DNA of 64,000 nt, from the NCBI RefSeq assembly GCF_029318685.1, contig NZ_CP119677.1, positions 1,426,001-1,490,000 of the forward strand, in the 5' to 3' direction. Of this stretch, positions 5,501 to 35,107 are shown in pieces (the stretch's first letter is position 1; the number at the start of each line of letters is the position of its first letter). The position numbers were made by a program, and so were the translations under genes. The notes below the pieces were generated by a model, which worked only from the letters and a program-made list of their open reading frames with translations, ran no database searches and had not been told where the DNA came from. The DNA comes from Ruminiclostridium papyrosolvens DSM 2782. GTDB lineage: Bacteria > Bacillota > Clostridia > Acetivibrionales > DSM-1351.

Positions 5501-7123
5501 ATGCTCAAGGTTATGATTGTAGATGATGAGTTTTATTTTAGAGAGGCACTAAAAATATCACTGTTATGGGGCAAACTAGGATTTGAAATATGCGGTGAAG
5601 CGAAAAACGGAAAAGAAGCTCTGCAGAAAATAGAGGAGTTGAATCCCGATATAACCATTGTAGACATAAATATGCCAATAATGGATGGTTTGGAGTTTGC
5701 CCAAAAAGTAAAGGAAAAAGAGATTAAGACTAAAATTCTAATTTTAACCGGACATAGCGAATTTAGTTATGCTAAACAAGCAGTTTCATTAGGAGTATGC
5801 AACTATATACTGAAACCGGTAAATGAAGATGAACTGACAAATTGTTTATGTGAAATGAAAGCAGATATAGAAAAGGAAGCAAATATTAAAGTTGAGGTAG
5901 AAAAGTTAAAGGAACAGGTTAAAGAAAACATTCCATTACTTAAAGAAAAATTTTTAAATGACTTAGTACAAGGAAACTCAGTAATAAAGTCAGAGGAAGT
6001 TTTCAAAAAGATAAAATATCTCAAAATGAATATGCTTTCCGAATATTATCAAGTAGCGGTAATTGAAATTGACTATGATGAAAAACGGGAATGGACTGAT
6101 GACGAAAAGCAGCTTTGGATATTTGCCATAAAAAATATTACAGAAGAAATACTACAGGAGCATTTTGAATTAGAAATGTGCTACGATAGTAATGATCGAC
6201 TATGTGTTATATTGTGTTTAAACGGAGATGAAGACGACTCTTTAATAGAACATAAGTTTGAGAAAATCAGGATAGTAGTTGACAGATATTTTAATTTCTC
6301 CATTTCAATAGGTATTGGTAATAGAAAACGTGATATATTTGATGTTGCCAGTTCATATAAAGAAGCTATTATCGCTTTAAAAAATAAGCTTACCGTTGGC
6401 AGAAATAAAGTAATACTATATAGTTTAGTCGATGATTTGGAGCTAAAGCTGAATTTATTCACTGCTGAACACAGAAGCCAGTTGTTATTAAGTATGCGGA
6501 CTGGAAATAGTGAAGAAATCAAAATCATGCTGACGAATATATTCAAAGATGTTCGGGGTAAGAATATTCACTATGAAATACTGCTTGTAGTTTGTGTTGA
6601 AATTGTGTCTGTATGTATGGAAATAATTGCTGAAATGGGCATTAGTTTTAAAGATATTTATCCTAAAAACGAGTTAAATGTACTTGAAGAAATTCAGTTA
6701 AAACAGTCTATAGATGAAATGGAAGCTTGGATAAATGGGATATTCACAGATGCTGTTGAATATATCAAAAGGAACAAGAATACCAAAGCATCACAGCTGA
6801 TTGAAAAAGTCAAAAAATATATTTTGGATAACTATCATGATGACGAGCTTGATATTAATAAAATGGCAAAAAGTCTTTTTGTAAATTACGGGCATCTTTG
6901 TTTTATATTCAAAAGAGAAACAGGTATTACAATAAATGAGTATCTTACCAAATTCAGAATTAAGAAAGCTAAAGAACTTATTGACAGCGGAAATCAACTG
7001 GTTGTAGGTGTGGCAAAAAAGGTTGGTTATGCTGATGCTAACTACTTTGGAAAGTGTTTTAAGAAATATTACGGGCTTGCTCCCAGTAAATACATAGAAA
7101 ATGTGAGTCATAAGAAAGATTAA
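5501..7123 (+). CDS. YesN-type response regulator with AraC DNA-binding domain
   Basis: Response regulator of 540 residues. The receiver domain (about 1-120) has the acidic pair Asp8/Asp9, the phospho-acceptor Asp55 in TIVDINMP, and the Lys in ILKPVN. A long middle region follows, and the last 100 residues form an AraC-type double helix-turn-helix ending in GYADANYFGKCFKKYYG. Two ATGs are possible (5495 and 5501); AAGGAG gives 9-nt spacing to 5501. Paired with the upstream YesM-like kinase, it most likely activates the sugar transport and glycosidase genes downstream. Confidence 0.92.
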   Translation: MLKVMIVDDEFYFREALKISLLWGKLGFEICGEAKNGKEALQKIEELNPDITIVDINMPIMDGLEFAQKVKEKEIKTKILILTGHSEFSYAKQAVSLGVCNYILKPVNEDELTNCLCEMKADIEKEANIKVEVEKLKEQVKENIPLLKEKFLNDLVQGNSVIKSEEVFKKIKYLKMNMLSEYYQVAVIEIDYDEKREWTDDEKQLWIFAIKNITEEILQEHFELEMCYDSNDRLCVILCLNGDEDDSLIEHKFEKIRIVVDRYFNFSISIGIGNRKRDIFDVASSYKEAIIALKNKLTVGRNKVILYSLVDDLELKLNLFTAEHRSQLLLSMRTGNSEEIKIMLTNIFKDVRGKNIHYEILLVVCVEIVSVCMEIIAEMGISFKDIYPKNELNVLEEIQLKQSIDEMEAWINGIFTDAVEYIKRNKNTKASQLIEKVKKYILDNYHDDELDINKMAKSLFVNYGHLCFIFKRETGITINEYLTKFRIKKAKELIDSGNQLVVGVAKKVGYADANYFGKCFKKYYGLAPSKYIENVSHKKD

Positions 7124-7142
7124 AAAGAATAGTTAAAAGTAA

Positions 7143-7187
7143 AAATAGCGATTAAAAATCAATCAAATTTTTAATCGCTATTTCTTA
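7143..7187 (+). terminator. Intrinsic terminator after two-component operon
   Basis: A perfect 17-bp stem (7143-7159 with 7167-7183) has a 7-nt loop and runs into TTTCTT. It ends the sensor/regulator transcript and separates it from the ABC importer. Confidence 0.9.
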
Positions 7188-7306
7188 TCCATCCAGGTTT
7201 AGTCTATTTGAACATTGGTAATTTAACAGTTAAATTTCCTTATTGCCATAAAATTTTCTCTTCAATGGAGGGATGAAAATATATATCATTTAAACATAAT
7301 ACACAA

Positions 7307-7318
7307 TCTTTCGAAAGA
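7307..7318. promoter_or_regulatory. 12-bp palindrome upstream of sugar-binding-protein gene
   Basis: TCTTTCGAAAGA is a perfect palindrome 41 nt before the binding-protein start. It could be an operator or a small hairpin in the leader. No confident -35/-10 pair was found nearby, so the role is open. Confidence 0.35.
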
Positions 7319-7359
7319 GATATGTAAATCAATACAAAAAGTTTTTAGGAGGTAGTAAT

Positions 7360-8709
7360 ATGATTAAATTGAAAAAAGTTGCAGTATTTGCTCTTTCAGC
7401 GGCAATGGTTACTTCATTGGCAGCTTGCGGAGGCGGAAATACAGCATCAGACAGTTCAGTATCATCTTCAACAGCATCAACTTCAAAAGCATCTGTTCAA
7501 TCAGGTGAAAAGGTTAAGCTGAAATTCCTCTCTTTAAGTGCTGATGATAACAGAAACAAAATCAGAGAAAATTACATAAAAACAAATATCGCAAAAGAAA
7601 TGCCAAATGTAGAAGTTGAATACGATTTGGGCGGCGGTGGAGATGATTACGCCAATAAGTTAAAAGCTTATAACGCTTCAGGAGATATGCCGGATGTATG
7701 GTTCTCCGAGCAGAATCTTTCATCTGTAGTAATTTCAGCAGGAAATGCATTGGACTTAGCATCATATGTCAAAAATACCGGCTTCGATAAGAAATTTGCT
7801 ATGAAAGAAGTTATAACACCGGATGCAGATGGTAAGTTATATTGTGTACAATCCGGTTCAGATCAGTACTTTACTCCAAGATTGTGGTACCACAAGGATA
7901 TTTTTACAAAGAATAATCTTCAGGTACCAAAGACTTTTGATGAATTGGTTAAAGTTTGTGAGACTTTGAAGTCAAAAGGAATTACGCCTATTTCTATAGT
8001 TGGTAAGGGTGGATGGACTCCTAATCTTCACATGCTTCAGACTATGATAATGGCTGAAGATCCACAGGTTGCAGTTGATCTGGCAAATAATAAGACCGAT
8101 TTCAGCAATCCTGTTGTTAAAAATGCATTGGGAAGAATTCAGAAACTTGTAAAAGCCGGTGCATTTGCTCAGGGTGTTACAAATATAGATTATGGTCCTG
8201 CAGTTGAAATGTATACTTCAAACAAAGCGGCTATGCTGGCTATGTTTACATGGGAACTTCCAAATCTTGAGAAAGCTAGTCCTGATACTGACTTTATGGT
8301 ATGGCCTGCAGCAAAAGACGGAGTTGATGCAAATGCATCTATCCAATTCTGGGGTGCACCATTAAGCGGATATTTAGTAGCGGCTAAAACAAAGAATCCT
8401 GAAGTGGCTGCTCAGTTCGCAATGTTCTGTGCAACTCAGGACGCTCTGTTCTATAATACTGATAATAAGGCTCCAACAGCACTTGAGACTGGTGTTAAAA
8501 TTGAAGGTATGTCAGAATTGGCAAAGAAGAACCTTGATCAATTCAATAATGCTAAGTTAAAGATACCTTCATTATGGTCGGCAATATACAGTACAAAGAT
8601 GTCGGCAGAAATAACCACTCTTGACAGCAACCTTCTTACAGGTGATTATTCACCGGATGAATTTATTAAAGCTATCAATCCTATATGGGCTAAAAACTTT
8701 AGTAAATAA
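7360..8709 (+). CDS. Sugar ABC transporter substrate-binding lipoprotein
   Basis: Extracytoplasmic solute-binding protein of family 1 type, 449 residues. The N-terminus is a lipoprotein signal ending in the lipobox LAAC (Cys near residue 23), then a Ser/Thr/Ala-rich linker of about 30 residues and the binding fold. FDELVKVCETLKSKGITPI is typical of oligosaccharide-binding proteins. AGGAGG precedes the ATG with normal spacing. Two permease genes follow and an alpha-galactosidase is third, so alpha-galactosides such as melibiose or raffinose-type sugars are likely ligands; this is an inference from context. Confidence 0.92.
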   Translation: MIKLKKVAVFALSAAMVTSLAACGGGNTASDSSVSSSTASTSKASVQSGEKVKLKFLSLSADDNRNKIRENYIKTNIAKEMPNVEVEYDLGGGGDDYANKLKAYNASGDMPDVWFSEQNLSSVVISAGNALDLASYVKNTGFDKKFAMKEVITPDADGKLYCVQSGSDQYFTPRLWYHKDIFTKNNLQVPKTFDELVKVCETLKSKGITPISIVGKGGWTPNLHMLQTMIMAEDPQVAVDLANNKTDFSNPVVKNALGRIQKLVKAGAFAQGVTNIDYGPAVEMYTSNKAAMLAMFTWELPNLEKASPDTDFMVWPAAKDGVDANASIQFWGAPLSGYLVAAKTKNPEVAAQFAMFCATQDALFYNTDNKAPTALETGVKIEGMSELAKKNLDQFNNAKLKIPSLWSAIYSTKMSAEITTLDSNLLTGDYSPDEFIKAINPIWAKNFSK

Positions 8710-8739
8710 ATCTGGTAGAAATGAATGGTTAAACAATAC

Positions 8740-8776
8740 ATATCCCTATATGAAATTCAACTTCATATAGGGATAT
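8740..8776 (+). other. Strong stem-loop between binding-protein and permease genes
   Basis: A perfect 15-bp inverted repeat (8740-8754 with 8762-8776) with a 7-nt loop is followed by only TATT, not a long T-run. Stem-loops at this place in importer operons commonly protect the binding-protein mRNA or partly terminate transcription, so that the binding protein is made in excess over the permeases. Confidence 0.8.
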
Positions 8777-8795
8777 TATTAAATAAGGTGATAAT

Positions 8796-9680
8796 ATGAA
8801 TAAAAACTATAATAGTAAACTTGCAATTTTTATATTTGCTTTTCCAACTTTAATCTTATTTACAGCTTTTGTTGTATATCCTATTTTCCCTGAAATAATT
8901 ATAAGTTTTCAAAATAATGACGGCTTTAGAAATATGGGATTTGTGGGTTTTGATAATTATGTAAGTATTCTTACTTCTGCTTCCTTCTGGAAAGCAAATA
9001 TGAATACATTGATAATTGTAATAATCTCAACTTGCATAGGACTTCCTATTTCATTATTCCTTGCATTATTAGTAGACAGACAAACAGAAGGTGTAAGAAG
9101 ATTTTTCAAATTCAGTAGTGTATTCCCGGCAGTACTTTCAGTTACCGTAATAGGTCAGATGTGGATTGCAATTTATAACCCTCAATGGGGATTAATTGAT
9201 AGTGTATTAAGAGCAATTGGATTAAACAACCTTGCATTGGGATGGCTGTCCGACAAAAGGACAGTTGTAGTTTCAATTACTGTAGCCTTCCTTTGGCAGT
9301 ACATTGGCTTAAACGCATTGCTTTTCTATACCGGTATTAAATCCATACCAAAGACTTACTATGAAGCAGCAACAATAGACGGAGCATCTTTCCTGAAAAC
9401 GAGTATAAAAATAACAATACCTCTTTTACAGGATGTTACCAAATACTTATTAGTAGTATCAGTACTTGGATGTATGTCCCAGTTTGCACATGTTAGAATA
9501 ATGACAGCAGGAGGGCCGGGTGATGCATCAAGAACAGTCATCTACGAATTGTACCATAGGGCATTTTCGGCTTCTGATTACGGACAGGGATGTGCAATTG
9601 CAGTTATCTTTATAATTGAATGTCTTGTGTTAACATGTTTAATTAACAAATTTGTTGCAAAAGAAAAAATTGAATTCTAA
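8796..9680 (+). CDS. Sugar ABC transporter permease, MalF-like
   Basis: Inner-membrane permease of 294 residues with six hydrophobic segments. The ATPase-contact EAA loop is YYEAATIDGASFLKTSIKIT at about residues 188-207. The start follows AAGGTGAT. It pairs with the next permease to form the channel. No ATPase gene is in the operon, as is common for Firmicutes oligosaccharide importers that share an MsmX/MsmK-type ATPase encoded elsewhere. Confidence 0.93.
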   Translation: MNKNYNSKLAIFIFAFPTLILFTAFVVYPIFPEIIISFQNNDGFRNMGFVGFDNYVSILTSASFWKANMNTLIIVIISTCIGLPISLFLALLVDRQTEGVRRFFKFSSVFPAVLSVTVIGQMWIAIYNPQWGLIDSVLRAIGLNNLALGWLSDKRTVVVSITVAFLWQYIGLNALLFYTGIKSIPKTYYEAATIDGASFLKTSIKITIPLLQDVTKYLLVVSVLGCMSQFAHVRIMTAGGPGDASRTVIYELYHRAFSASDYGQGCAIAVIFIIECLVLTCLINKFVAKEKIEF

Positions 9681-9700
9681 TAGAGGGTGGTGAAGCAGTA

Positions 9701-10528
9701 ATGAAACAAAAAGTTTTAAACATGACAAATAAGGTAGTACTGATATTTATAGGAATAACATTTCTTTTCCCATTATACTGGATGTTAAATTTATCATTCA
9801 AATCAAAAAGTGAGGTGTATGATAATGCCTTTGGCCTTCCAAAGAAATGGATTTTTAACAACTATGGAGATGCATTGGAAAAATTTAACTTTTCTAGATA
9901 CTTGTCAAACAGTGTGATTTATTCTGTAAGTACAATTATTATTACAATTATTTTAGGCAGTATGTTTGCATACTGTGTAAGCAGAATGAACTGGAGATTT
10001 AAGAATACCGCTTTGACATATGTTTCACTTGGGCTGATCATACCGGTTCAGGTTGTAATCATACCGCTTCTTATAATGGTTAAAAATATGGGACTGAAGG
10101 GAACTCATCTGGGACTGATACTTCCATATTCGGCTTTTGCACTATCTTCATGTATTTTAATGCTTTATGCATTTTTCAGAACCTTACCAAGGGAGCTTGA
10201 AGAAGCGGCATGCATTGATGGATGCAATATATACCAAACATTTTTCAGAATAATACTCCCGACAATCAAACCTGCAATGGCTACTCAATTTACACTTATA
10301 TTTATGAATACGTATAACGAGTTCTTTTTAGCGTTTATTTTAGGTGCTGATGATAAAATCAGATCTTTACCGGTAGGCTTACTTAACTTCTTTGTAAGTA
10401 TAGGAGTATCTCACTGGGGACAGATTGGCGCAGCTATGGTAATAACCAGTATTCCTACTGTTCTAATTTATATTTTAGGAAATGAGCAATTAGAGAATGC
10501 CCTAACGGCAGGAGCAATTTTAAAATAG
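9701..10528 (+). CDS. Sugar ABC transporter permease, MalG-like
   Basis: Second permease, 275 residues, with six membrane segments and an EAA loop reading ELEEAACIDGCNIYQTFFRI. It begins 20 nt after the first permease behind a purine-rich GAGGGTGGTGA. It is 29 nt upstream of the alpha-galactosidase gene, so the three are probably one transcript. Confidence 0.93.
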   Translation: MKQKVLNMTNKVVLIFIGITFLFPLYWMLNLSFKSKSEVYDNAFGLPKKWIFNNYGDALEKFNFSRYLSNSVIYSVSTIIITIILGSMFAYCVSRMNWRFKNTALTYVSLGLIIPVQVVIIPLLIMVKNMGLKGTHLGLILPYSAFALSSCILMLYAFFRTLPRELEEAACIDGCNIYQTFFRIILPTIKPAMATQFTLIFMNTYNEFFLAFILGADDKIRSLPVGLLNFFVSIGVSHWGQIGAAMVITSIPTVLIYILGNEQLENALTAGAILK

Positions 10529-10557
10529 TTGAAGTAAAAGGAAAAGGGAAAAAAATT

Positions 10558-12654
10558 ATGCATAAAGTTTTATCAGAATACCTCTTCTCAGATATGATAA
10601 TAAGATACTTAACAAATGAAGAAGGAAATATAGGCTTTGAGATTTTGCCTGCCTCCCTGAAAGACAAAGCAGCTGCCTCAAAAAAGTATAATATTGATCC
10701 ACTTGTACAGGTTTTTATAAGAGGTGATGATTTTTCAGGGGGGTTTGCAAATGGGCACACAATGAGAAATGGACAACAAACCTTTCTGCTTCGATATGAA
10801 TCCCAGAAAGTTGAAAAAATAGAAAACACTCAGGTTATTACCACTATACTGAAAAGTGAACAGGGCTATGTTGCCAGGCATGTACTTACTTATCACAATG
10901 GGTTAAAAGCTTTTGAACTGAAAACTGTACTTGCTAATAAATCCGATAAAGCTATTTGTTTGGAGATGCTGTCCAGTTTCTCAGTTGGTGGGCTGACTCC
11001 TTTTATAGAAGGTGAAGCACCTGAAAGTATGAATATTCACAGAATACGCAGTTGTTGGAGTAATGAAGGAAGACTTATAACAGAGTCCGTTGAGGACCTG
11101 CAGCTTGAGCCGTCATGGTCAGGTCATGGTGTAAGAACAGAAAAATTTGGTCAGATCGGCTCTATGCCCGTCAGAAAATTTTTCCCATTTCTGGCGGTGG
11201 AAGATACAGTTACACATGTGGTTTGGGCTGCACAGCTGGCCTGTGCCTCATCGTGGCAGATGGAAATGTATAGAAGGGATGATGCGCTGTGTATATCCGG
11301 CGGACTTGCAGACTTTGATTTTGGGCACTGGATGAAGGTACTGGAACCGGGAACCGAATTTGAGACACCTTCTGCATTTATAACCGTCGGTATCGGAAAT
11401 GTAGACGAAGTATCACAAAGACTGCTTACAATACACAAGTACAACGTTAACAAGATAAACAAGTTTGACAGGCTTCCGGTTTTATTCAATGAATTCTGTA
11501 CTACTTGGGGAAATCCTTCACATGATAATATCAAAAAAATTGTAGATATTATCAAAGAAAAAGAGGTTGATTATTTTGTTATTGACTCAGGGTGGTTTGC
11601 TGATAAAGAAAATGGCTGGGATGGTACACACGGGGATTGGATAGTAAGTCCTGAGGTATTTCCACATGGTCTTCAGGAGACTGTTAGGATAATCCGGGAG
11701 GCGGGAATGATTCCGGGAATTTGGTTTGAGTTTGAAAACTGTGGATATCTGTCAAAAGCGTATAAAGACCATAAACACCTTCTAACGAGAAATGGAGATG
11801 TAATAACTTCAGGACTCAGGAAGTTTTGGGATATGACCGACCCGTGGGTTATTGATTACCTAAGTGATAAAGTCATATCAATGCTAAAGCAATATGGTTT
11901 CAAATATTTAAAGGTTGACTATAATGAAACAATCGGTATAGGTTGTGACGGGTATGAGTCCCTTGGAGAGGGGCTAAGACAAAAGATTCTTGCTTCACAG
12001 GAATTCTTCAGGAGAATTAGGGAGGAAATCCCTGACATTATTATAGAAAACTGCTCTTCGGGAGGGCATAGACTTGAGCCTTCAATGATGTCATTATGTG
12101 AAATGGCATCGTTTTCAGATGCACATGAGTGTGATGAAATACCGGTTGTGGCAGCTAATCTTCATAGAGTAATAAATCCATGCCAATCACAGATATGGGC
12201 GGTATTGCGGAAAAAAGACAGTAAAAAGAGAGTGGTATATTCTATTGCTAATACCTTTTTGGGAGTAATGTGCTTATCCGGTGATATATATGATTTGGAT
12301 AAAGAGCAATGGAATACAGTTGAAGAGGGAATCAGTTTCTACAGAGCTGTTTCAGATATTATATTAAATGGAACAACTTACTTTTTCGGTTCAAAACTTA
12401 AAAGTTACAGAAATCCTAAAGGATGGATGGGCATCCTAAGAAAGTCTGAAGATGAAAAGGAAGTACTTGCTTTGATATATACGTTCCACGGAAATTTCCC
12501 TGATACTGTGGAAATTCCTATAGGTGATAATTATGAAATTTGCAATACATACTGTGCTTTCGAAAATAATGTTTTACTCATAAATGGAAGTCTTTGTATC
12601 AATATGAAGGAAGAATTTGAAGCAGTAGCTGTTCATTTAAAATTATCCAAGTGA
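10558..12654 (+). CDS. Alpha-galactosidase, GH36
   Basis: Cytoplasmic glycosidase of 698 residues with no signal peptide. It hydrolyses terminal alpha-linked galactose from oligosaccharides. The N-terminal half is the beta-sandwich domain of GH36. The barrel carries YLKVDYNE with the likely nucleophile Asp454, ENCSSGGHRLEPSM, and FSDAHE with the likely acid/base Asp521; WGNPSHDN and DSGWF are further GH36 marks. It is the last gene of the importer operon, so imported alpha-galactosides are probably cut inside the cell and the galactose passed to galTKE downstream. Confidence 0.93.
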   Translation: MHKVLSEYLFSDMIIRYLTNEEGNIGFEILPASLKDKAAASKKYNIDPLVQVFIRGDDFSGGFANGHTMRNGQQTFLLRYESQKVEKIENTQVITTILKSEQGYVARHVLTYHNGLKAFELKTVLANKSDKAICLEMLSSFSVGGLTPFIEGEAPESMNIHRIRSCWSNEGRLITESVEDLQLEPSWSGHGVRTEKFGQIGSMPVRKFFPFLAVEDTVTHVVWAAQLACASSWQMEMYRRDDALCISGGLADFDFGHWMKVLEPGTEFETPSAFITVGIGNVDEVSQRLLTIHKYNVNKINKFDRLPVLFNEFCTTWGNPSHDNIKKIVDIIKEKEVDYFVIDSGWFADKENGWDGTHGDWIVSPEVFPHGLQETVRIIREAGMIPGIWFEFENCGYLSKAYKDHKHLLTRNGDVITSGLRKFWDMTDPWVIDYLSDKVISMLKQYGFKYLKVDYNETIGIGCDGYESLGEGLRQKILASQEFFRRIREEIPDIIIENCSSGGHRLEPSMMSLCEMASFSDAHECDEIPVVAANLHRVINPCQSQIWAVLRKKDSKKRVVYSIANTFLGVMCLSGDIYDLDKEQWNTVEEGISFYRAVSDIILNGTTYFFGSKLKSYRNPKGWMGILRKSEDEKEVLALIYTFHGNFPDTVEIPIGDNYEICNTYCAFENNVLLINGSLCINMKEEFEAVAVHLKLSK

Positions 12655-25764: not shown

Positions 25765-26106
25765 CTAGCCGATAGCGTCGGAACCTTCTTCTCCTGTTCT
25801 GATACGGTAACATTCTTCGATGGGAAGTACAAAAATTTTACCGTCTCCTATGTTACCGCTTCTTGCAGTTTCCATTATGGCATTTACTGTAGGCTTTACA
25901 TAGTCATCATTGACGCAGATTTCAAATCTGATTTTGTTCAAAAGATTTACTTCCGTAACAGTACCACGGTAGCTCTCGGTGTACCCCATCTGCTGTCCAC
26001 AGCCTTTTACATGGCTTACTGTCATTTTTGCAACCTTTGCATTAAAAAGTGCCTGCTTTACATCTTCAAAAGCTTCCGGCCTAACAATTGCAACTATCAT
26101 CTTCAT
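25765..26106 (-). CDS. P-II family regulator with variant T-loop
   Basis: Trimeric nitrogen/carbon signal protein family, 113 residues. MKMIVAIVRPEAFEDVK is the first strand and helix; the C-terminal GDGKIFVLP and YRIRTGE keep the ATP-contacting Lys and Arg residues. The T-loop reads QQMGYTESYRGTVTEVNLL: Tyr46 is kept, but Tyr51, the uridylylation site of enteric GlnB, is Thr, and Lys40 is Met. It differs from the NifI1 and NifI2 patterns I know. No amtB or nif gene is adjacent. It probably binds ATP/ADP and 2-oxoglutarate but has an unknown target. GGGAGGGG precedes the start. Confidence 0.9.
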   Translation of the reverse strand: MKMIVAIVRPEAFEDVKQALFNAKVAKMTVSHVKGCGQQMGYTESYRGTVTEVNLLNKIRFEICVNDDYVKPTVNAIMETARSGNIGDGKIFVLPIEECYRIRTGEEGSDAIG

Positions 26107-26272
26107 AAAAAACCCCTCCCTTATATATTTATATTATTAATTAAACAAGACACTATTACTATCAATATACATTTACATTTGTTTACTAAAAATTACTTAT
26201 ATTATACTGCATAAAGCAACCATAAATCTATAAGAATTTAGATGTAATTCAAAAGGATAATAACTTAAATAA

Positions 26273-26312
26273 AAGCAGAGCAGAAATCACAGATAGGATT
26301 ACTGCTCTGCTT
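26273..26312 (-). terminator. Bidirectional-looking terminator left of the island
   Basis: AAGCAGAGCAGAAATC (26273-26288) pairs with GATTACTGCTCTGCTT (26297-26312) with one mismatch. On the minus strand it is followed by TTATTTAAG, so it may end the island kinase transcript about 280 nt past its stop; on the plus strand only a weak T-run follows. Confidence 0.7.
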
Positions 26313-26595
26313 AATAGTTTTCTTAGATATCAATAGACTTGCAAAAAATTGTAAATACCTTTGGCTGCAATTAAAATTTGTCGGAATAGTCTTCGGTTTT
26401 ATTTTAAGGCTTCAGTGCATTTTGGCAGTGGACTTCAATGCTTTCAGGAATAGCAAGCAGGCTGGAATATATAAAGGAGTTATTAGTTTCAAGACCCAGT
26501 TTATACCTTAGAGAAAGTGCTTCATTATTTCTCGTATTTCAATATGACTGAACGGAAGGTCATTTGTGTAATAAAGATCTCAGTACACTTTCTGC
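26313..26595. other. Spacer with a possible gene fossil at the left island edge
   Basis: No intact gene is seen. On the minus strand a 44-codon open stretch ends at a TAA at 26404-26406 and reads NEALSLRYKLGLETNNSF, then SSLLAIPESIEVHCQNALKP. It looks protein-like but has no start and is too short to assign. It may be a remnant of a gene broken when the neighbouring island arrived. Confidence 0.35.
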
Positions 26596-27891
26596 TTACC
26601 GTTTAGCGTTCTTTATGGGCAGTTTAACCTTGAAAGTACAACCGCCACCCGGTGTATCCTCCAATGTGATAATTCCTTGATGTAGCTGAACAATTTCTTT
26701 GGCAATGCACAAACCTAATCCAAAGTGCTCTTTGCTATTCCTCGACGGGTCAGCACGATAGAAACGTTCAAACACCTTCTCTTTCTCGCTATTGGAGATG
26801 CCCACTCCATGATCTGTTATAAACAACACAATTTGCTTCTGCTGTACCTCCGCACCCATTTCAACAGACAAATGGGGCATAGAATACGAAACTGCATTGT
26901 CAATCAATATACCAAGAACCATGCCAATGTGTTCTTTATCTCCAGTGAACTTGGGGTAATGTTCTTCTATGTTCAACTCTAAACGGATGTTTTTGTTTCG
27001 TGCAGATTCTTGGAATGCTTCCCATGCCTCAATCAAAAGAGAATCTACATCTGTTTCTTTCATGCTCATTTTCCAGCTTCCGGCGTCACTCGACGCTAAT
27101 CTAAGCATGGATTGTATGAGCGCGGACATACGCCCGCATTCATCCAGCACAACCTTTTGTTTTTTCTGTGAAGCTGTATCAGCTTGATCAATACATAGAG
27201 TTTCTGCATTGGCTTGTATCACTGATAGTGGTGCTTTTAATTCATGTGAAGCAGCCGCAATAAATCTCTTCTGGCTTCTTATGGTTACCTCCACCGGTTC
27301 TATTGCTTTGCCGATCAGTATACGGCTCATAAACGATATGAGCAAGAGCATACCCAACCATACCAGAGGATACCAACTGCAATAACTTTTTATGATTTCC
27401 CATGTCGTGGATTGCGGAACAATCAAAATCAAGTTGTACTCGGTTCCCGATACTTGAAAAGCGTTGTTGACTCCACAATATTTTTCATTTTGTGTTCCAC
27501 TTATTAAGTGCATGGTGCGAGTCGCTATCTCAGTATTAGCGTCCGCTTTAACGGTTGTTGAAAAAGGCGTATTCCCAGATTTCATTTGCTTGATCAAAAT
27601 ATCTGAAGATGTAACGAAACTTTCTATACTGGATTTTTCAGAAATTCCGTCAGATATATAAACAAACCCGTGGAATTTAGCTATGTAACTTAATAAATTA
27701 GGATCACTTATTCCCACTCCATTTTTGATTTGCTCAATGATGCTGTCGCACATGTTTCCAGCAAATATCATCTCGGATTCCTGCACGCTTGCCACTGTGT
27801 TGCCCACCATCAGCAGTTCCATTATAGTGAACGCCAACATAGTGAAAGACACAAACATTACTACCAATTTTTTACGGAGCTTTTTAATCAC
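26596..27891 (-). CDS. Sensor histidine kinase of the accessory island
   Basis: Membrane kinase of 431 residues. A transmembrane segment at about 10-30, an extracytoplasmic domain of about 135 residues and a second segment (about 172-193) precede HisKA with His216 in AASHELKAPLS. The ATPase domain has the N box GILIDNAVSYS, the G1 box ITDHGVGIS and FGLGLCIAKEI. It starts with GTG inside a GTGA overlap with the regulator gene, so translation is coupled. GC and codon use are higher than in genes outside the island. It probably senses a cell-envelope stress or antibiotic handled by the divergent ABC system. Confidence 0.93.
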   Translation of the reverse strand: MIKKLRKKLVVMFVSFTMLAFTIMELLMVGNTVASVQESEMIFAGNMCDSIIEQIKNGVGISDPNLLSYIAKFHGFVYISDGISEKSSIESFVTSSDILIKQMKSGNTPFSTTVKADANTEIATRTMHLISGTQNEKYCGVNNAFQVSGTEYNLILIVPQSTTWEIIKSYCSWYPLVWLGMLLLISFMSRILIGKAIEPVEVTIRSQKRFIAAASHELKAPLSVIQANAETLCIDQADTASQKKQKVVLDECGRMSALIQSMLRLASSDAGSWKMSMKETDVDSLLIEAWEAFQESARNKNIRLELNIEEHYPKFTGDKEHIGMVLGILIDNAVSYSMPHLSVEMGAEVQQKQIVLFITDHGVGISNSEKEKVFERFYRADPSRNSKEHFGLGLCIAKEIVQLHQGIITLEDTPGGGCTFKVKLPIKNAKR

Positions 27892-28568
27892 GGCGATTCC
27901 TCCAACCTATAGCCTGCGCCGTAGACAGTTTTGATTGTAGTTTTGCAACCTAATTCCCGCAAGCGCTTACGCAGGAAATGAATATAGTTGTCTACATTGC
28001 CATCCTCAACTTCTCCGCGTCCGCCCCACACCTTCCAGAGCAGCCCATCACGTGTCTGCGTTTTATCAGGTGATTCTAAAAAAGCGGCCATCACATCGGC
28101 TTCCTTTTGTGTCAGTATAATCGAATAACCATTAGAGGTAAGCCTTCTCTGCCCTGCGTCCAAGGTGAGATCATATGCCCTCAATACCTCTTCGACAATA
28201 TCTGTGGGGCGGCGTGTCAAAGCTCTGACCCGCGCCAGCAGTTCTTTTATATGGAACGGCTTGACCAAATAATCGTCGGCCCCACAATCTAACCCATCGA
28301 TTTTATCATCCAATTCACCGAGCCCGGTCATCATCAGAACAGGCGTATATATTTGCTTTCGCCGCATTGCTTTCAAAATCGTCAGGCCGTCTATAATAGG
28401 CAGCATCCTGTCCAGTAAAACAATATCATAACCATATTCGAGATTCAGGGCATAAAACAAAGCCGTTTCGCCATCAGCGCAACGGTTTGTAATATAGCCC
28501 TCTTTCTGCAACTGCTCCTCAATTACAGCAGATAGATTTTCGTCATCCTCAATTAATAATACTCTCAT
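27888..28568 (-). CDS. OmpR-family response regulator of the accessory island
   Basis: 226 residues: a receiver domain with Asp8/Asp9, phospho-acceptor Asp53 in VLLDRMLP and the Lys in DYLVKPFH, then a C-terminal winged helix (TRDGLLWKVWG to GAGYRLEE). It resembles regulators of the VanR/BceR-like group. Transcribed divergently from the lipoprotein/ABC operon over a 164-bp gap, which it most likely controls. Confidence 0.94.
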   Translation of the reverse strand: MRVLLIEDDENLSAVIEEQLQKEGYITNRCADGETALFYALNLEYGYDIVLLDRMLPIIDGLTILKAMRRKQIYTPVLMMTGLGELDDKIDGLDCGADDYLVKPFHIKELLARVRALTRRPTDIVEEVLRAYDLTLDAGQRRLTSNGYSIILTQKEADVMAAFLESPDKTQTRDGLLWKVWGGRGEVEDGNVDNYIHFLRKRLRELGCKTTIKTVYGAGYRLEESP

Positions 28569-28599
28569 GTTTAGACCCTCTTTTTATGATACCGATTAC

Positions 28600-28627
28600 A
28601 TTATACCCTTTACATCATACCATACAA
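28600..28627 (-). promoter_or_regulatory. Promoter of the island two-component genes
   Basis: On the minus strand TTGTAT (28627-28622) and TATAAT (28605-28600) are 16 nt apart, 32 nt upstream of the regulator start. Confidence 0.6.
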
Positions 28628-28732
28628 CTATCTAAAAATCCTTTAAGAACAGGGTATATTTTTACGAAACTCTACAGGACTTTTAGAGAAATGTAGCTAT
28701 ACAATAAGCATGAAAATGAAGGAGGTAGTTTT

Positions 28733-29245
28733 ATGAAACACAAAATGCTTTTCACTTTAATCACAGTGCTTTTGCTGACATTTTGCTCTGGTTGCGGAAA
28801 TAAGTCGCTTGATAACAATACTTCGCCAAATCCATCGGCGCAGATAAGCGGAGGGGCTACAGCGGAAAGCAAAAAAAACAAAGATAATCTAGGTGTCAAT
28901 AATCCAGAAACCTTTGATGAGCTATCTAAACGCTGTAAATTGAATGGCTATGTAATAGAGTTTTCAGATACTGGCTGTACGATTTCACCAACAATATCTG
29001 AGGGGGATTTAGCTTACCAAGCTGCACCCGGAAATGAAAGTCAGGTTAAACAAGTTATAGTTACCTATAACGAAAGCTGTACATTCCAAATCGTGCTGGT
29101 AAGTCTTTCCACTGGGACGATGACTTATGAGGATGCAACCATCAATGACGTTAAGAAACAAACAGGATTATTTATCGCTGGCGAATATGACGGCGAGAGT
29201 ATTATTCACGCTGAGCAAGTGTATATCTACAGGATGGTGAAGTGA
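28733..29245 (+). CDS. Small lipoprotein of the island ABC operon
   Basis: 170 residues. A signal peptide ends in FCSGCGN, a slightly unusual lipobox with Cys at -3, giving a lipid-anchored Cys at about residue 20. A Ser/Asn/Lys-rich linker follows, then a compact domain with Cys and beta-type pattern (CKLNGYVIEFSDTGCTI). AAGGAGG gives a firm start. It is 4 nt upstream of the first permease gene. I recognise no domain; it may be an extracytoplasmic partner of the permeases, or a ligand sensor for the kinase. Confidence 0.82.
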   Translation: MKHKMLFTLITVLLLTFCSGCGNKSLDNNTSPNPSAQISGGATAESKKNKDNLGVNNPETFDELSKRCKLNGYVIEFSDTGCTISPTISEGDLAYQAAPGNESQVKQVIVTYNESCTFQIVLVSLSTGTMTYEDATINDVKKQTGLFIAGEYDGESIIHAEQVYIYRMVK

Positions 29246-29249
29246 TTAT

Positions 29250-30467
29250 ATGAGCTTTTTCAAACGCGCTCTTTGTTATATCAGGCGCAAAAAGAGTAAA
29301 AGTATTCTTCTATTTTCCTGTTTCTTCATTATGTGTACCTTGATTTTGAGCGCCACAATCGTTTTAATGACAGCGCAGGCAACGAGCAACTCGCTTAAAG
29401 AAAAGACAGGCTCAAAACTCGTTTTGGAAAATCATCAAGGAGATAATAACATTTCCGCTGAAAGTGTAGCCTTGCTTTCTGGTTTAGATTCCGTGAGTCG
29501 TATCAATCGGGTGGCAATAGGCACGGCTTATCCTGCTGATTTTTCTCTTGTAACATATGTAGATTCAGGGGATACTTCAAACCTGACAATCACTCTCCAT
29601 GCTTATGATAATACTGAAACTGACGGGTTGTTTGCGGAGGAAAAATACCGTTTGCTAGAAGGTACCCCCATCACAGAAAAACGGGGTGGGGTAATTATCG
29701 ACTCTATACTGGCAGAGGCCAACGGACTTAGCATCGGAGATATGCTTACATTTAGAACGGAAACCGGGGCTAATACATCAGGGAAGATTGTCGGAATTTT
29801 CTTTTCTGGTATGGAGCGGCAACAGGAAAACTCGGTAATGTCCGCATATCGCATCGAAAATCAGATTTTTGTTGATCACGGAATATTCGCCTCGCTGTTT
29901 ACCTCATACGATTTCTCCAGACTATCCGTTTATGCAGCCGACCCCGATGCATTGACCACTTTGCATCAACAAATAGAGTCGATGCTTGGCGAAAGCATCA
30001 GTATTACCACATCCGATGCACTATATCAACAGATACAGGCACCACTAAAGCAGATTATTCGGATCACATCTCTGATACTTACATTGATTGTCACAACAGC
30101 TATAATTGTCATTTCATTGCTTCTTTGCATGTGGATGAGAACACGTAAAAAAGAAATGGCCGTTTTAATTAGCTTAGGTGTATCAAAACTTGATCTTTTT
30201 TTACAAGCAATAACGGAAAGCCTTTTTCTGCTTTACTTGGCGATAATGGGTGCAATTACTTGTAGCAGTTTGTTTTTGAACAAGCTGATGAATAACTTAT
30301 TTCCATCAGATAGCTTGATTGGTATGGCGAATATTCGATTGGAGGGACAGCATATCTTGATGCTTATTGTAATGGGAAGTGCAATTGTACTACTGACGGT
30401 AGGAATTTCAGTTTCCCCGGCACTCTGGGCAAGCCCCAGAGATACATTTTCAAGGGTGGAGGGATAG
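29250..30467 (+). CDS. FtsX-type ABC transporter permease 1
   Basis: 405 residues. An N-terminal membrane segment (about 18-40) is followed by a MacB-like extracytoplasmic domain of about 220 residues, then three C-terminal membrane segments. The cytoplasmic KKEMAVLISLGVSKLDLFLQ matches the FtsX/MacB family coupling region. Four-segment topology of the MacB/LolC kind, not the ten-segment BceB kind. It is followed after 1 nt by a second, longer permease of the same family, suggesting a heterodimer. Confidence 0.9.
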   Translation: MSFFKRALCYIRRKKSKSILLFSCFFIMCTLILSATIVLMTAQATSNSLKEKTGSKLVLENHQGDNNISAESVALLSGLDSVSRINRVAIGTAYPADFSLVTYVDSGDTSNLTITLHAYDNTETDGLFAEEKYRLLEGTPITEKRGGVIIDSILAEANGLSIGDMLTFRTETGANTSGKIVGIFFSGMERQQENSVMSAYRIENQIFVDHGIFASLFTSYDFSRLSVYAADPDALTTLHQQIESMLGESISITTSDALYQQIQAPLKQIIRITSLILTLIVTTAIIVISLLLCMWMRTRKKEMAVLISLGVSKLDLFLQAITESLFLLYLAIMGAITCSSLFLNKLMNNLFPSDSLIGMANIRLEGQHILMLIVMGSAIVLLTVGISVSPALWASPRDTFSRVEG

Positions 30468-30468
30468 T

Positions 30469-31917
30469 ATGAACAGTATGCAGAGAGCTTGGCGTAGCGT
30501 AATTCGCAAGCCAATCAAAACCTTGCTTTTGCTATTGGTTATCGTAACCATCAGCTTGCTTATATTATGTGGAATGGCTAGCAGAAACGCCAGTGTGCAA
30601 ACACAGGACAATACTCGACAAGCAATAGGCGCTGGTTTACGCTTAGACGCTAATGAGCGAAATCGCTTTAAACGAATCAAGGAGGCGTCTGAGCATTTTG
30701 ATAAGAACGGCGAAGGCTCTTACGGAGGAGTACACCAGAAAATTATTAGCACCGCTAGGGGTCCGCAATGGTCATCGTGGACAGATAACTCTTTTGATTC
30801 CTTGCAAATGAATGACATAAAAAAAATAGCCGTTGTGCCGGGGATAGCAGATTATAATATCACAACCGTTATTACTCCGGTTTTGCCCGAAAATTTCGAG
30901 CGAATTGAGGCTGCGGATGTGGATCAACATGCTGATATTGGCTGTGTTTCACTCATAGGTAACAGGAGGATGGCGCTTGACTTCAACGTGCTTTCCGGCA
31001 ATGTAAGTATTAAGAGCGGGCGCATGGTTGAGGCGGACGATCAGAATGTATGCGTTATTTCCGAGCAGTTGGCGAAAGCCAATTCTATTTCTGTGGGCGA
31101 TGCTTTACAGTTTAAAAACCGCCGTGACCCAAAAAATACCAACATATATGAAGCGACGGTTATCGGGATATATAAAACCAAACAGTTGATTTCCCCCAAA
31201 ATGAGTGGGGATACTTACCGTTCAGAAAATATTATTTTCACGGATTTACGTTTCCCTGAAAAGGCAGAGGGATACGAGAATGATCCATTATTTGAACATG
31301 CTTATTTCAAAATTGGGGATGTTGATTTATATGATAGCGTAAAGACTGCTGTTGAAAAGATAAACATGGACTGGGAGCGATACGATTTGATTGACCGCAA
31401 CGGCAATATGTCTACAGTGTCCTCCAATTTTAATGACTTGGCAAAAATTAGCACTTTGCTTATTGTCATTACCTTTGTTGCGGGCCTAGTGATTCTCTTT
31501 TTAATCTTTGTCTTTTGGGTGAAGAACAGAAACCATGAAATTGGTGTTTTGCTCGCGCTTGGTTGTAAAAAGGTCAATATTTTAGGACAGCTTTTTGTGG
31601 AAGCTCTGATTATTACGTTTTTGTCTTTTGCAATCTCCTTTGCCTGTGCGCCGGTAATAACGGAAGTCGCGGCTAACTATTTGGTTACACATCAAATAGA
31701 ACAAGCACAAATGCAAAAAGACATGAACGCGGGCAAGGTGTTAACGGAATATAGAGAATCGGAGCAAACCGTAGTTGGCGTAAATGTTGCAGTTACAGAT
31801 GAAATGATGGTCTTCTGCGGGTTGGGCATGATTTCATTAGTTGGCGCATCTGTTGGAATCGCAGGAATAAGCATCTTGCGTAAAAAGCCCAAAGATATAT
31901 TGAGCGAATTGAGTTAA
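30469..31917 (+). CDS. FtsX-type ABC transporter permease 2
   Basis: 482 residues with the same layout: N-terminal membrane segment, large extracytoplasmic domain of about 290 residues, and three C-terminal membrane segments around NHEIGVLLALGCKKVNILGQ. GGAGGG precedes the ATG and the ATPase gene follows after 10 nt. GC-rich codons (GCG, CGC, GCC) are more common than in genes outside the island. Confidence 0.9.
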   Translation: MNSMQRAWRSVIRKPIKTLLLLLVIVTISLLILCGMASRNASVQTQDNTRQAIGAGLRLDANERNRFKRIKEASEHFDKNGEGSYGGVHQKIISTARGPQWSSWTDNSFDSLQMNDIKKIAVVPGIADYNITTVITPVLPENFERIEAADVDQHADIGCVSLIGNRRMALDFNVLSGNVSIKSGRMVEADDQNVCVISEQLAKANSISVGDALQFKNRRDPKNTNIYEATVIGIYKTKQLISPKMSGDTYRSENIIFTDLRFPEKAEGYENDPLFEHAYFKIGDVDLYDSVKTAVEKINMDWERYDLIDRNGNMSTVSSNFNDLAKISTLLIVITFVAGLVILFLIFVFWVKNRNHEIGVLLALGCKKVNILGQLFVEALIITFLSFAISFACAPVITEVAANYLVTHQIEQAQMQKDMNAGKVLTEYRESEQTVVGVNVAVTDEMMVFCGLGMISLVGASVGIAGISILRKKPKDILSELS

Positions 31918-31927
31918 GGAGGAAATT

Positions 31928-32548
31928 ATGATTTTAGAAGCAAAAAATGTGTCCTATTATTATAAGTCAAATAAAGAGGCTTTGATTCTTGATAATGTAA
32001 ACTACGGCTTCGATTGCGGGAAAATGTATGCGATCCTCGGGCCGAGCGGCGCAGGCAAGACAACTCTCTTATCCCTGCTGGCAGGGTTGGATGTTCCCAT
32101 CAAGGGACAAATTCTCTATGATGGTAAACCGATTACTTCTAAAGGGCTTACTGCTCATCGTAAGTATCACAGTTCGTTGGTATTTCAAAACTACAACCTA
32201 ATTGATTACCTCACTCCTATAGAAAATGTAAAACTCGGTGGTAAGGGGAATCCTGAAACATTGCTTGGCACCATCGGCATTGGAAAAGAGTTTTGGAAGC
32301 GAAATGTCTTACAGCTATCCGGAGGCCAACAACAACGAGTTGCCATAGCTCGTGCATTGGCCAGTGAGGCCAAGCTATTGTTGGCAGACGAACCCACCGG
32401 AAATCTCGATGATGCCACTGCGTGGGATGTAATTGATCTTTTGAAACGTATTGCCCACGAAGAAAATAAATGCGTTATTGTTGTAACGCATAACAAGGAA
32501 TTGGCAAAGGAAGCTGATGCGGCTATTCACATGAAAACCCGTACTTGA
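31928..32548 (+). CDS. ABC transporter ATP-binding protein of the island (MacB/LolD type)
   Basis: 206 residues: Walker [11 protein letters not shown]-loop in [12 protein letters not shown], signature LSGGQQQR, Walker [11 protein letters not shown], switch His in VVTHNKE. AAGGAGG precedes the start. With the two FtsX-type permeases and the lipoprotein it completes an export or extraction complex. Such complexes under two-component control often serve antimicrobial-peptide defence or lipid/lipoprotein handling; which applies here is not visible. Confidence 0.94.
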
Positions 32549-32638
32549 GCTTGCTGTCTGTACACCATATATAGTACTATTTGACACACCATGGCTAAAA
32601 AGAAAAAACGTCGTGCTGTCGCTCTCCGCCTGCTCTAA

Positions 32639-32799
32639 AAGCCGCTTAAACAAGCGGTTTGGCAGGACTGGAAAGACGGAGAAATCTCACATATGGACTA
32701 CCACCATATGCGGGAGGATTATGACAATAAGATGCAGTTTTCAAGAACTTTCAGAACATTGAGAAGCTGACAAGGGATGTTCTAACCGAGCTTATGGAT
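32639..32799 (+). pseudogene. C-terminal remnant of a large serine recombinase (TnpX-like)
   Basis: From 32639 the frame reads WQDWKDGEISHMDYHHM then REDYDNKM, a segment I recognise from the C-terminal part of large serine recombinases of Tn4451-type elements. After an apparent internal deletion and frameshift near 32748, another frame reads FQNIEKLTRDVLTEL, the usual motif close to the C-terminus of the same family. About 60 residues that normally separate the two motifs are missing, and the N-terminal catalytic domain is absent. It lies directly after the island ABC genes, so it probably marks the decayed end of the element that brought them. Confidence 0.7.
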
Positions 32800-33161
32800 C
32801 ATGGCAGATATATTGAGGCGGCAAGTACTACAAATTATTTCTTTCCACGGGCAAGGGGTGGGTAAAGGACAACATTTCAAGCTGTAGCAAACTGGCTGAC
32901 TGTTATTATTCTTTGGGAGATTACGAATTAGAGTTGGATGCAGCTATAAGCTCTTTCAGATACGGTGCTGCCCGTCCTGAATTTTGCTGCCGGCTGGGAT
33001 TCAATTTTTTACAAAAAAATGATATGGTTTCAGCTATTTTCTGGTATAAGCTGGCTTATCTGCATAATGAAATTGCTTTCCATTATAGGCCGGAGGATTT
33101 GAAAATTATTAATAATAAACGATGTCTGGAAGCCATATGGGGAATCGATGCAGTGGAATAG
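32788..33161 (+). pseudogene. 3' fragment of a glycosyltransferase/TPR protein gene
   Basis: From ELMDHGRYIE the frame shifts by one missing base at about 32822-32826 and continues as KYYKLFLSTGKGWVKDN, ISSCSKLADCYYSLGDYE and on through ARPEFCCRLGFNFL and SAIFWYKLAYL to a TAG at 33159-33161. This is the TPR-like C-terminal part of clostridial family 2 glycosyltransferases. The catalytic N-terminal domain is missing. The 5' end runs straight into the serine recombinase remnant, and both seem to share the sequence GAGCTTATGGATCATGGC, so the junction lies within it. Confidence 0.7.
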
Positions 33162-33259
33162 ACATTTTGTGTACATAACGTTAAAGACAGAAATCTCTTT
33201 TGTTGCGAAATTTTAAGAGGATATTTGACGAATTTTTGCGAATTCCGCAGGATATGTGA

Positions 33260-33265
33260 TATAAT
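33260..33265 (+). promoter_or_regulatory. Extended -10 promoter of the ior operon
   Basis: TGATATAAT gives an extended -10 (TGn plus TATAAT). A poor -35 (TTGCGA at 33236-33241) is 18 nt upstream. A short GAGCC/GGCTC hairpin (33287-33301) lies in the leader just before the ribosome site. Confidence 0.6.
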
Positions 33266-33313
33266 TTTTCTAACAAACTAGTTTTTGAGCCTTTTGGGCT
33301 CAGGGGAGGTAAA

Positions 33314-35107
33314 ATGTCTGAAAAACTACTTATGGGTAACGAGGCCATAGCCCTTGGTGCTATAAGAGCAGGGGTAAATATTGTAACAGGGTACCCCGGA
33401 ACCCCTTCTACAGAGGTGCTTGAAACAGTAGCCCGTAATAATCCGGGAGATATATATATTGAATGGTCTGTAAATGAAAAGTCTGCAATGGAAGTAGCTG
33501 CGGGTGCAGCATATTCCGGTGCCAGAACCATGGTAACTATGAAGCAGGTTGGATTGAACGTTGCGTCTGATCCCCTCATGAGTCTGGCATATATTGGCGT
33601 AAAGGGAGGCATGGTAGTACTTGTTGCTGATGACCCGGGGCCTTTTTCATCTCAGACTGAGCAGGATACAAGGCATTTTGCAAGATACTCCAATCTTCCT
33701 GTGCTTGACCCCTCAACACCTGAAGAAGCATATGAAATGATTCAGTATGCTTTTGAATTGTCAGAAATGGTGGAGCTTCCTGTATTTTTGAGACCTACTA
33801 CAAGGATATGTCATTCCTGTGCAACTATAGATGTAGATGATAAAAGACTTGAACATAAAATTGAGGGTTTTGTGAAAGACCCCAGATGGGTTATATTTCC
33901 GAGCCTTGCTTACAAAAAGCATATTCATATTGAAGAACTTCAACATAAGCTAAGTGATATATTTTCCAGCATCAGTTTCAACAAGGTTGAGGGAAAAGAT
34001 GTAAAAACTGGTGTTGCTGCATCAGGAGTTGCGTATTCGTATGTGGTAGAGGCAATTGAAAAATTAAATGCCAATGTAAAGCTGTTTAAAGTTGGAACTC
34101 CTTATCCATTGCCTCAGGAGACTGCATCCTGCTTCCTCGAAGGATTGGACGAAGTTCTTGTATTCGAAGAGCTTGACCCTGTTGTTGAAGAGGAAATGGC
34201 CATGCTTTGTGCCTCAAAACAGCAGAAAACCAGAATACTTGGTAAAAAGACCGGGCATCTGCCATTTGCAGGAGAGTATACTTTTGAATTAGTCTGCGAG
34301 GCACTTGCAAAATATCTCAATATAAAAACAGAAAAAATTGAAAATACATTAGCTCCCGAACTTCCTGTCAGACAGCCCGTACTTTGTGCAGGATGCCCTC
34401 ACAGAGCTTCTTTCTATGCTGTCAAAATGGCAATGAAAGGCCAAAAGGCAGTGTTTACCGGCGATATAGGCTGTTATACTCTCGGAAATGCAAAACCTTT
34501 GGATATGGTAGATACTTGTCTTTGTATGGGTGCCGGCATTACAGTGGCACAAGGAATTAAAAGAGCCCAACCTGATGCAAAGCATATAGCTTTTATTGGC
34601 GACTCCACATTCTTCCATACCGGAATACCGGGCATTGTAAATGCCGTATATAACAATACCGATATTACAGTGGTTATATTGGATAACAGTACTACCGCTA
34701 TGACAGGTCATCAGCCCCATCCGGGAACGGGCAAAACAATGATGAACAATATATCTGAAAAAATAGATATCTACACAATGGTGAAAGCCTGTGGTGTAGG
34801 CCACATCGTCAAAGGAAATCCACTTGATTTCGGCAGTGCCGTAGAAATAATCAAAAAAGCGGCAGAATACCAAGGCCCTTCAGCGGTAATCTTTGAAGCT
34901 CCTTGTATTGCTCTATTTAAGCCGCCTGTAAAATACACTATTAAAGACAATTGTAAAAATTGCAAAAAATGTATTACTGATATTGGATGTCCTGCCATAT
35001 CATTTATTGATGGCAAAGTCAATATAGAGCCTTCCCTTTGCTACGGCTGCGGGTTATGTACAAATGTATGTCCCTTTAATGCCATAGGAGGTGAAGAAAA
35101 TGAGTAA
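33314..35107 (+). CDS. iorA: Indolepyruvate:ferredoxin oxidoreductase, alpha subunit
   Basis: 597 residues. Thiamine-diphosphate enzyme subunit that oxidatively decarboxylates arylpyruvates (from aromatic amino acids) to aryl-CoA with ferredoxin reduction. GNEAIALGAIRAGVNIVTGYPGTPSTE is seen in part at the N-terminus; ...GDIGCYTLG and IGDSTFFHTG about residues 375-445 form the thiamine site. The C-terminus carries two 4Fe-4S motifs, CKNCKKC with a later CP, and CYGCGLCTNVCP. AGGGGAGG precedes the ATG. It overlaps iorB by 8 nt. Confidence 0.95.
   Translation: MSEKLLMGNEAIALGAIRAGVNIVTGYPGTPSTEVLETVARNNPGDIYIEWSVNEKSAMEVAAGAAYSGARTMVTMKQVGLNVASDPLMSLAYIGVKGGMVVLVADDPGPFSSQTEQDTRHFARYSNLPVLDPSTPEEAYEMIQYAFELSEMVELPVFLRPTTRICHSCATIDVDDKRLEHKIEGFVKDPRWVIFPSLAYKKHIHIEELQHKLSDIFSSISFNKVEGKDVKTGVAASGVAYSYVVEAIEKLNANVKLFKVGTPYPLPQETASCFLEGLDEVLVFEELDPVVEEEMAMLCASKQQKTRILGKKTGHLPFAGEYTFELVCEALAKYLNIKTEKIENTLAPELPVRQPVLCAGCPHRASFYAVKMAMKGQKAVFTGDIGCYTLGNAKPLDMVDTCLCMGAGITVAQGIKRAQPDAKHIAFIGDSTFFHTGIPGIVNAVYNNTDITVVILDNSTTAMTGHQPHPGTGKTMMNNISEKIDIYTMVKACGVGHIVKGNPLDFGSAVEIIKKAAEYQGPSAVIFEAPCIALFKPPVKYTIKDNCKNCKKCITDIGCPAISFIDGKVNIEPSLCYGCGLCTNVCPFNAIGGEENE

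Follow-up and report, generated by a model that had tools for sequence, protein, structure and literature searches.

Remains of a probable serine recombinase element fused to a spore-surface glycosyltransferase relic beside a mobile two-component/ABC cassette in Ruminiclostridium papyrosolvens

In the genome of Ruminiclostridium papyrosolvens DSM 2782, a block of two-component and ABC transporter genes is followed by a short stretch in which the debris of a large serine recombinase (LSR) runs into that of a glycosyltransferase (GT). The question that this locus raises is how the two broken genes came to be joined, and whether the recombinase brought in the regulator and transporter genes next to it. 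We refer to the whole stretch of 64,000 nucleotides that was analyzed as the window, and all coordinates are positions within it unless another locus is named. The features that matter for the argument are the following:

25765 to 26106, minus strand: glnB-type P-II gene, the left flank, 89-92% identical to its counterparts in genomes G005, G006 and G008, where it adjoins iorA
26407 to 26529, minus strand: weak relic of a spore-surface cluster, LSLRYKLGLETNNSFIYSSLLAIPESIEVHC...
26612 to 32616: mobile cassette of a two-component system and an FtsX-type ABC exporter
26596 to 27891, minus strand: histidine kinase
27888 to 28568, minus strand: response regulator
28733 to 29245, plus strand: lipoprotein
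29250 to 30467 and 30469 to 31917, plus strand: FtsX permeases
31928 to 32548, plus strand: ATPase
32648 to 32734, plus strand, frame of 32639: LSR relic piece 1, KQAVWQDWKDGEISHMDYHHMREDYDNKM
32734 to 32793, plus strand, frame of 32731: LSR relic piece 2, AVFKNFQNIEKLTRDVLTEL, placed by codon comparison with the recombinases P0001, L019 and L020
32788 to 32802, plus strand: joint, GAGCTTATGGATCAT, which by codon comparison fits both the LSR (EL) and the GT (ELMDH)
32794 to 33161, plus strand: GT relic, the TPR region of a spore-surface glycosyltransferase of the GT2 type
33210 to 35107, plus strand: iorA promoter and gene (gene 33314 to 35107), the right flank, at about 90% identity and in synteny in G005, G006 and G008

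Downstream of the ABC ATPase gene (31928-32548), and before iorA (33314), come three open pieces in different frames. The recombinase remnant (32648-32793) consists of two C-terminal pieces in two frames, as an earlier note on this DNA had proposed. Piece 1 corresponds to residues about 451-479, in the C-terminal region, of the 565-aa relative P0001. Its best match is an annotated recombinase of 565 aa encoded by an Oscillospiraceae plasmid (CP141730.1), with 77% amino acid identity over 30 aa (E=1e-9) and 83% identity over 90 bp at the DNA level, and blastn also matches it to LSR genes in G001, G004 and G009. Piece 2 is collinear with AVFKQFQNIEQLTRDVLVEL in the plasmid recombinase, and between the two pieces about 28 codons are deleted and the frame is shifted. 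The Pfam and NCBIfam models gave no match to either short piece by itself, and the identification of the pieces is by pairwise similarity to LSR genes. The intact relative P0001 contains Resolvase, Recombinase, zinc-ribbon and DUF4368 domains, and its nearest PDB sequence is TnpX of Tn4451 (E=1.2e-15), which bears out the Tn4451-type label that had been given to the relic. The first three of these domains are absent from the window, where about 50 C-terminal LSR residues are left. The recombinase of the window is a relic and no longer a functional member of the DUF4368/TnpX type. None of the viral contigs searched for the LSR matched.

The LSR pieces run directly into the TPR part of the GT. 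The GT relic is 73% identical over 80 aa (E=2.5e-37) to an intact gene of 373 aa in G003, of which it covers residues 210-288 and then 324-358; it is 63% identical to an intact GT in G004 and at most 49% identical to sequences elsewhere. After the joint the relic reads MDHGRYIEA, followed by a 1-base slip near 32823 and then KYYKLFLSTGKGWVKDN..., and at 33045-33059 about 36 codons have dropped out in frame, which has united two near-copies of TATAAGCTGGC. The catalytic domain (PF00535, GT2), present in the intact G003 gene, is gone. The view that LSR remains lead into a broken GT thus holds, with a frameshift and a deletion in the GT, and the translated search recommended in the earlier note returns significant matches for LSR piece 1 and for the GT. 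Chance likeness, with neither relic being real, could draw on the silence of the family models on both LSR pieces; set against the E-values of both relics, the DNA identity of piece 1 and the collinearity of piece 2, it is already refuted.

At the joint, the codons GAG CTT ATG GAT CAT (ELMDH) are acceptable to both parents. GAGCTT suits the LSR, which has GAACTT in CP141730 and GAGCTT in G004, and GAGCT.ATGGATCA suits the intact G003 GT, which has GAG CTG ATG GAT CAC. The bases common to both parents amount to 5-6 exact positions, or about 10 if one or two mismatches are allowed. A deletion at short homology would be a plausible origin of the LSR-GT joint; of what had been claimed here, the shared segment stands, and its origin by short homology is compatible with these codons and not proven by them. 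A plasmid megablast with the joint region found no match.

The wider segment is missing from relatives. In three congeners (G005, G006 and G008) glnB and iorA are adjacent, without 26130-33210, and both flanks of this segment align at about 90%; the relics thus do lie at the right edge of an accessory segment, where they had been placed. The segment is likewise missing from G002, which has different genes to the left of iorA. It had also been asked whether the GT gene is intact in relatives without the island: intact GTs do occur in related species, and none resides between glnB and iorA in G005, G006 or G008. Between glnB and the left relic there is a terminator-like inverted repeat, AAGCAGAGCAG...CTGCTCTGCTT, at 26281-26330.

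The GT relic comes from a BclA-type collagen/GT cluster, and another, weaker relic, to the left of the cassette, points to the same origin. When 58 genomes of the order were searched, the left relic had a single match beyond the window, G003:C2:205070; this match is weak (E=1.7e-4, 43% over 35 aa) and lies 6 kb away from where the GT relic matches best, in one cluster. Both relics match this 6.5-kb BclA-type cluster of G003 in order and orientation (left gene on the minus strand, GT on the plus strand), and the cluster contains collagen genes that encode a BclA C-terminal domain (PF18573) and have intact GTs beside them. From these matches, the left relic is a probable, though not certain, remnant of a spore-surface cluster. 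An intact GT paralog and a BclA_C gene are also found elsewhere in the same genome as the window, 4 kb apart. The O-GlcNAc transferase SgtA of C. difficile has its gene beside the collagen-like gene bclA3 (PMC7157674), so that a GT is an expected neighbor of a collagen target. The GT in question resembles SgtA in being a GT2-type enzyme of about 360 aa whose gene adjoins that of a collagen-like spore protein; it differs in that the window keeps the TPR tail only, so that the likeness is one of enzyme type and gene neighborhood.

The cassette between the two relics has a wider distribution. It forms one collinear block that is 90.8% identical to positions 6144-12148 of locus L089 in Lutispora saccharofermentans, and it shows 65-67% identity to a copy in Gorillibacterium timonense (L090). 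The same layout of two-component, lipoprotein, FtsX, FtsX and ATPase genes is found on the E. faecium plasmid NZ_CP040873.1 (L097, 13153-33758), where it is flanked by IS256- and ISL3-type transposases. These copies make the cassette a demonstrably mobile module. The gene in the lipoprotein position of the E. faecium copy is annotated "chitinase". Among 391 genomes of the class searched at E<=1e-40, the copy in the window was the only one, and the viral contigs searched for the cassette permease gave no match. The cassette ends where the kinase and ATPase genes have their 3' ends, so that the LSR and GT relics are not part of what it shares with Lutispora; about 30 bases (32617-32647), assigned to neither, separate the cassette from the LSR relic. 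The suggestion that the joint would date the arrival of these genes fails. Synonymous divergence (dS) between the cassette and Lutispora is 0.14-0.48, a range that comes with no calibration, and that between neighboring core genes and those of G005/G008 is 0.34-0.49. Dating by divergence was rejected because the donor is unknown and dS is uncalibrated; the LSR-GT joint does not date the arrival of the cassette.

What a recombinase of this kind does when intact can be read from its closest relatives. In congeners, the LSRs closest to the relic occur as single genes, each closing the right end of an element of 3.8-9.0 kb in which a regulator and efflux-type cargo precede the LSR. The element in G009 (5,682 bp; L114/L115, G009:C26:18095-23777) carries a MerR regulator, a MATE-type transporter and the LSR; that in G001 (9,018 bp; L112/L113, G001:C8) a TetR regulator, PEP-synthase-like proteins and an ABC-2 transporter; and that in G004 (3,760 bp; L116 1457-5217, G004:C14) an AraC regulator, the cargo names being our own reading of the sequences. 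Each of the three interrupts a collagen-like gene within its Gly-X-Thr coding repeat, at matching attachment sites, with arms and core present at both ends: GTTTTCCTAATATAAACG and CGTTTATATTAGGAAAC, in slightly differing versions, flank the core CTCCGGTGG. Removal of the elements from core to core, computed on the sequences, yields single open frames of 536 (G001), 556 (G009) and 581 aa (G004) with an unbroken collagen repeat, and the site rebuilt from the two element ends matches one that lies undivided just after the LSR gene of CP141730.1. Half of the LSR loci in the clade (5/10; G001, G004, G009, G567 and G631) are at collagen repeats, as against 0/27 for other LSRs of the genus, in a small clade sample that was assembled as found and in which the G001 repeat was seen at the split gene and not by the repeat filter. 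Clade LSRs outside collagen genes occur in G410, G691, G513 and G273. In G567, the LSR, a collagen gene and a GT like that of the relic all lie within 7 kb.

Two further loci of this clade may be mentioned. On the 72.6-kb plasmid CP141730.1, an apparently empty attachment site lies directly behind the LSR gene (L088 12363-12426) as an imperfect inverted repeat around CACCGGTGG, which is possibly the unintegrated state. In G273, an LSR of the same clade stands beside an XRE-type regulator and a UppP/BacA-like gene (L095 3051-6499, G273:C2), again a regulator plus resistance-type cargo, with the function read from sequence alone.

Elements of this clade can lie in collagen genes, and such GTs usually adjoin these genes, which explains the pairing of LSR and GT in the window. 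We therefore favor, with a probability of roughly 0.6, the hypothesis that a small LSR-driven integrative element has left its remains in the window, in a BclA-type spore-surface locus with its own SgtA-like GT. An element of the clade would have inserted in a collagen gene beside a GT, in a BclA/GT locus situated between glnB and iorA. A deletion at a short shared sequence may then have removed the last ~30 residues of the LSR, the attachment site, the remainder of the collagen gene and the catalytic domain of the GT, leaving the fused LSR-GT relic, while a separate deletion would have taken most of the 5' part of the LSR. Both attachment sites would have been lost through such deletions, and the two-component/ABC cassette would likely be the cargo of the element. 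The gene order in the window fits, with the LSR relic at the end of regulator/transporter genes and a GT of the cluster fused to it, but the collagen repeat is gone.

The role of the LSR in bringing the cassette is the part that needs most care. The order regulator (minus), transporter (plus) and LSR (plus) in the G009 element equals that of the window. Moreover, in Gorillibacterium the cassette adjoins an AraC gene with 86% identity to the one carried by the G004 element, which suggests that both draw on one cargo pool. On the other side, no attachment arm was found at the ends of the island within 3 mismatches, the right-hand attachment motif is absent from the whole genome, and no collagen repeat is left in the window. 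The sole candidate arm with 3 mismatches in the window falls within the response regulator gene, and Lutispora has it at the corresponding position; on these grounds it was rejected. Within 10 kb of the cassette, neither Lutispora nor Gorillibacterium has an LSR of the relic's family, and the annotation shows none beside the E. faecium copy. The earlier proposal that the recombinase explains the arrival of these genes therefore stays an inference, which the gene order fits, and we consider it probable but unproven that the LSR brought the cassette.

We also considered the possibility of two separate histories, in which the cassette came later, by another route, into the relic of an older LSR element that had decayed in a collagen/GT locus. 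The cassette moves without such an LSR in Lutispora, in Gorillibacterium and on the IS-flanked E. faecium plasmid, and the LSR has lost its 5' 450 codons close to the cassette end, both of which would fit; the layout as in an intact element, with the LSR at the right end, and the shared AraC cargo speak against it, and we regard two histories as a rather unlikely alternative. Even less likely in our view is that 26130-33210 arrived whole and already broken, so that the spore cluster was never functional here. No part of the segment lies between glnB and iorA in any of the three syntenic relatives (3/3), and G002, with other genes to the left of iorA, is also without it, as such an arrival would predict; against this, the GT relic is nearest to genes of the same genus (G003, then G004, with all others lower), which favors a local origin of the GT part.

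As a type, the recombinase is already known: it is TnpX-like, with DUF4368 as in P0001, a common domain among multi-targeting LSRs (PMC10083194). It differs from TnpX in that the intact relatives reside in short elements with one to few cargo genes, half of those seen being in collagen-like genes. Elements that interrupt genes of spore formers and are excised by an LSR are also known, namely gin in gerE, SPbeta in spsM and skin in sigK (PMC5595907; PMC4191935). The elements of G001, G009 and G004 resemble these in splitting a gene at a short core repeat and in the restoration of the frame upon removal; they differ in the collagen repeat target, the size of 3.8-9.0 kb and the resistance-type cargo. 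A likeness to SCC/Ccr lies in the combination of an LSR with exchangeable regulator and resistance-type cargo at one site, and the best NCBIfam match of the L019 LSR is CcrB (E=1.8e-30, below the cut-off), whereas the recombinase and target gene of the clade are others. In the literature that we covered, most subscription papers lying outside it, no report of a collagen repeat as an LSR landing site was found.

Taken by itself, the LSR-GT fossil in the window is ordinary genome decay, and the greater interest lies with the intact clade. Tentatively, the clade may consist of short, cargo-swapping elements that land in the collagen Gly-X-Thr repeat and excise in sporulation, thereby restoring the gene. 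If this is true, vegetative cells would carry resistance-type cargo without losing a spore coat gene, and the window would be what is left once such an element loses its site and gets stuck: an end stage in which the cargo is fixed, the ends are gone and the adjoining spore glycosylation gene is destroyed. Some spore formers have several copies of the collagen repeat target. A clade of collagen-landing recombinases, with the site intact behind one member, would offer a testable tie between the traffic of resistance cargo and variation of the spore surface.
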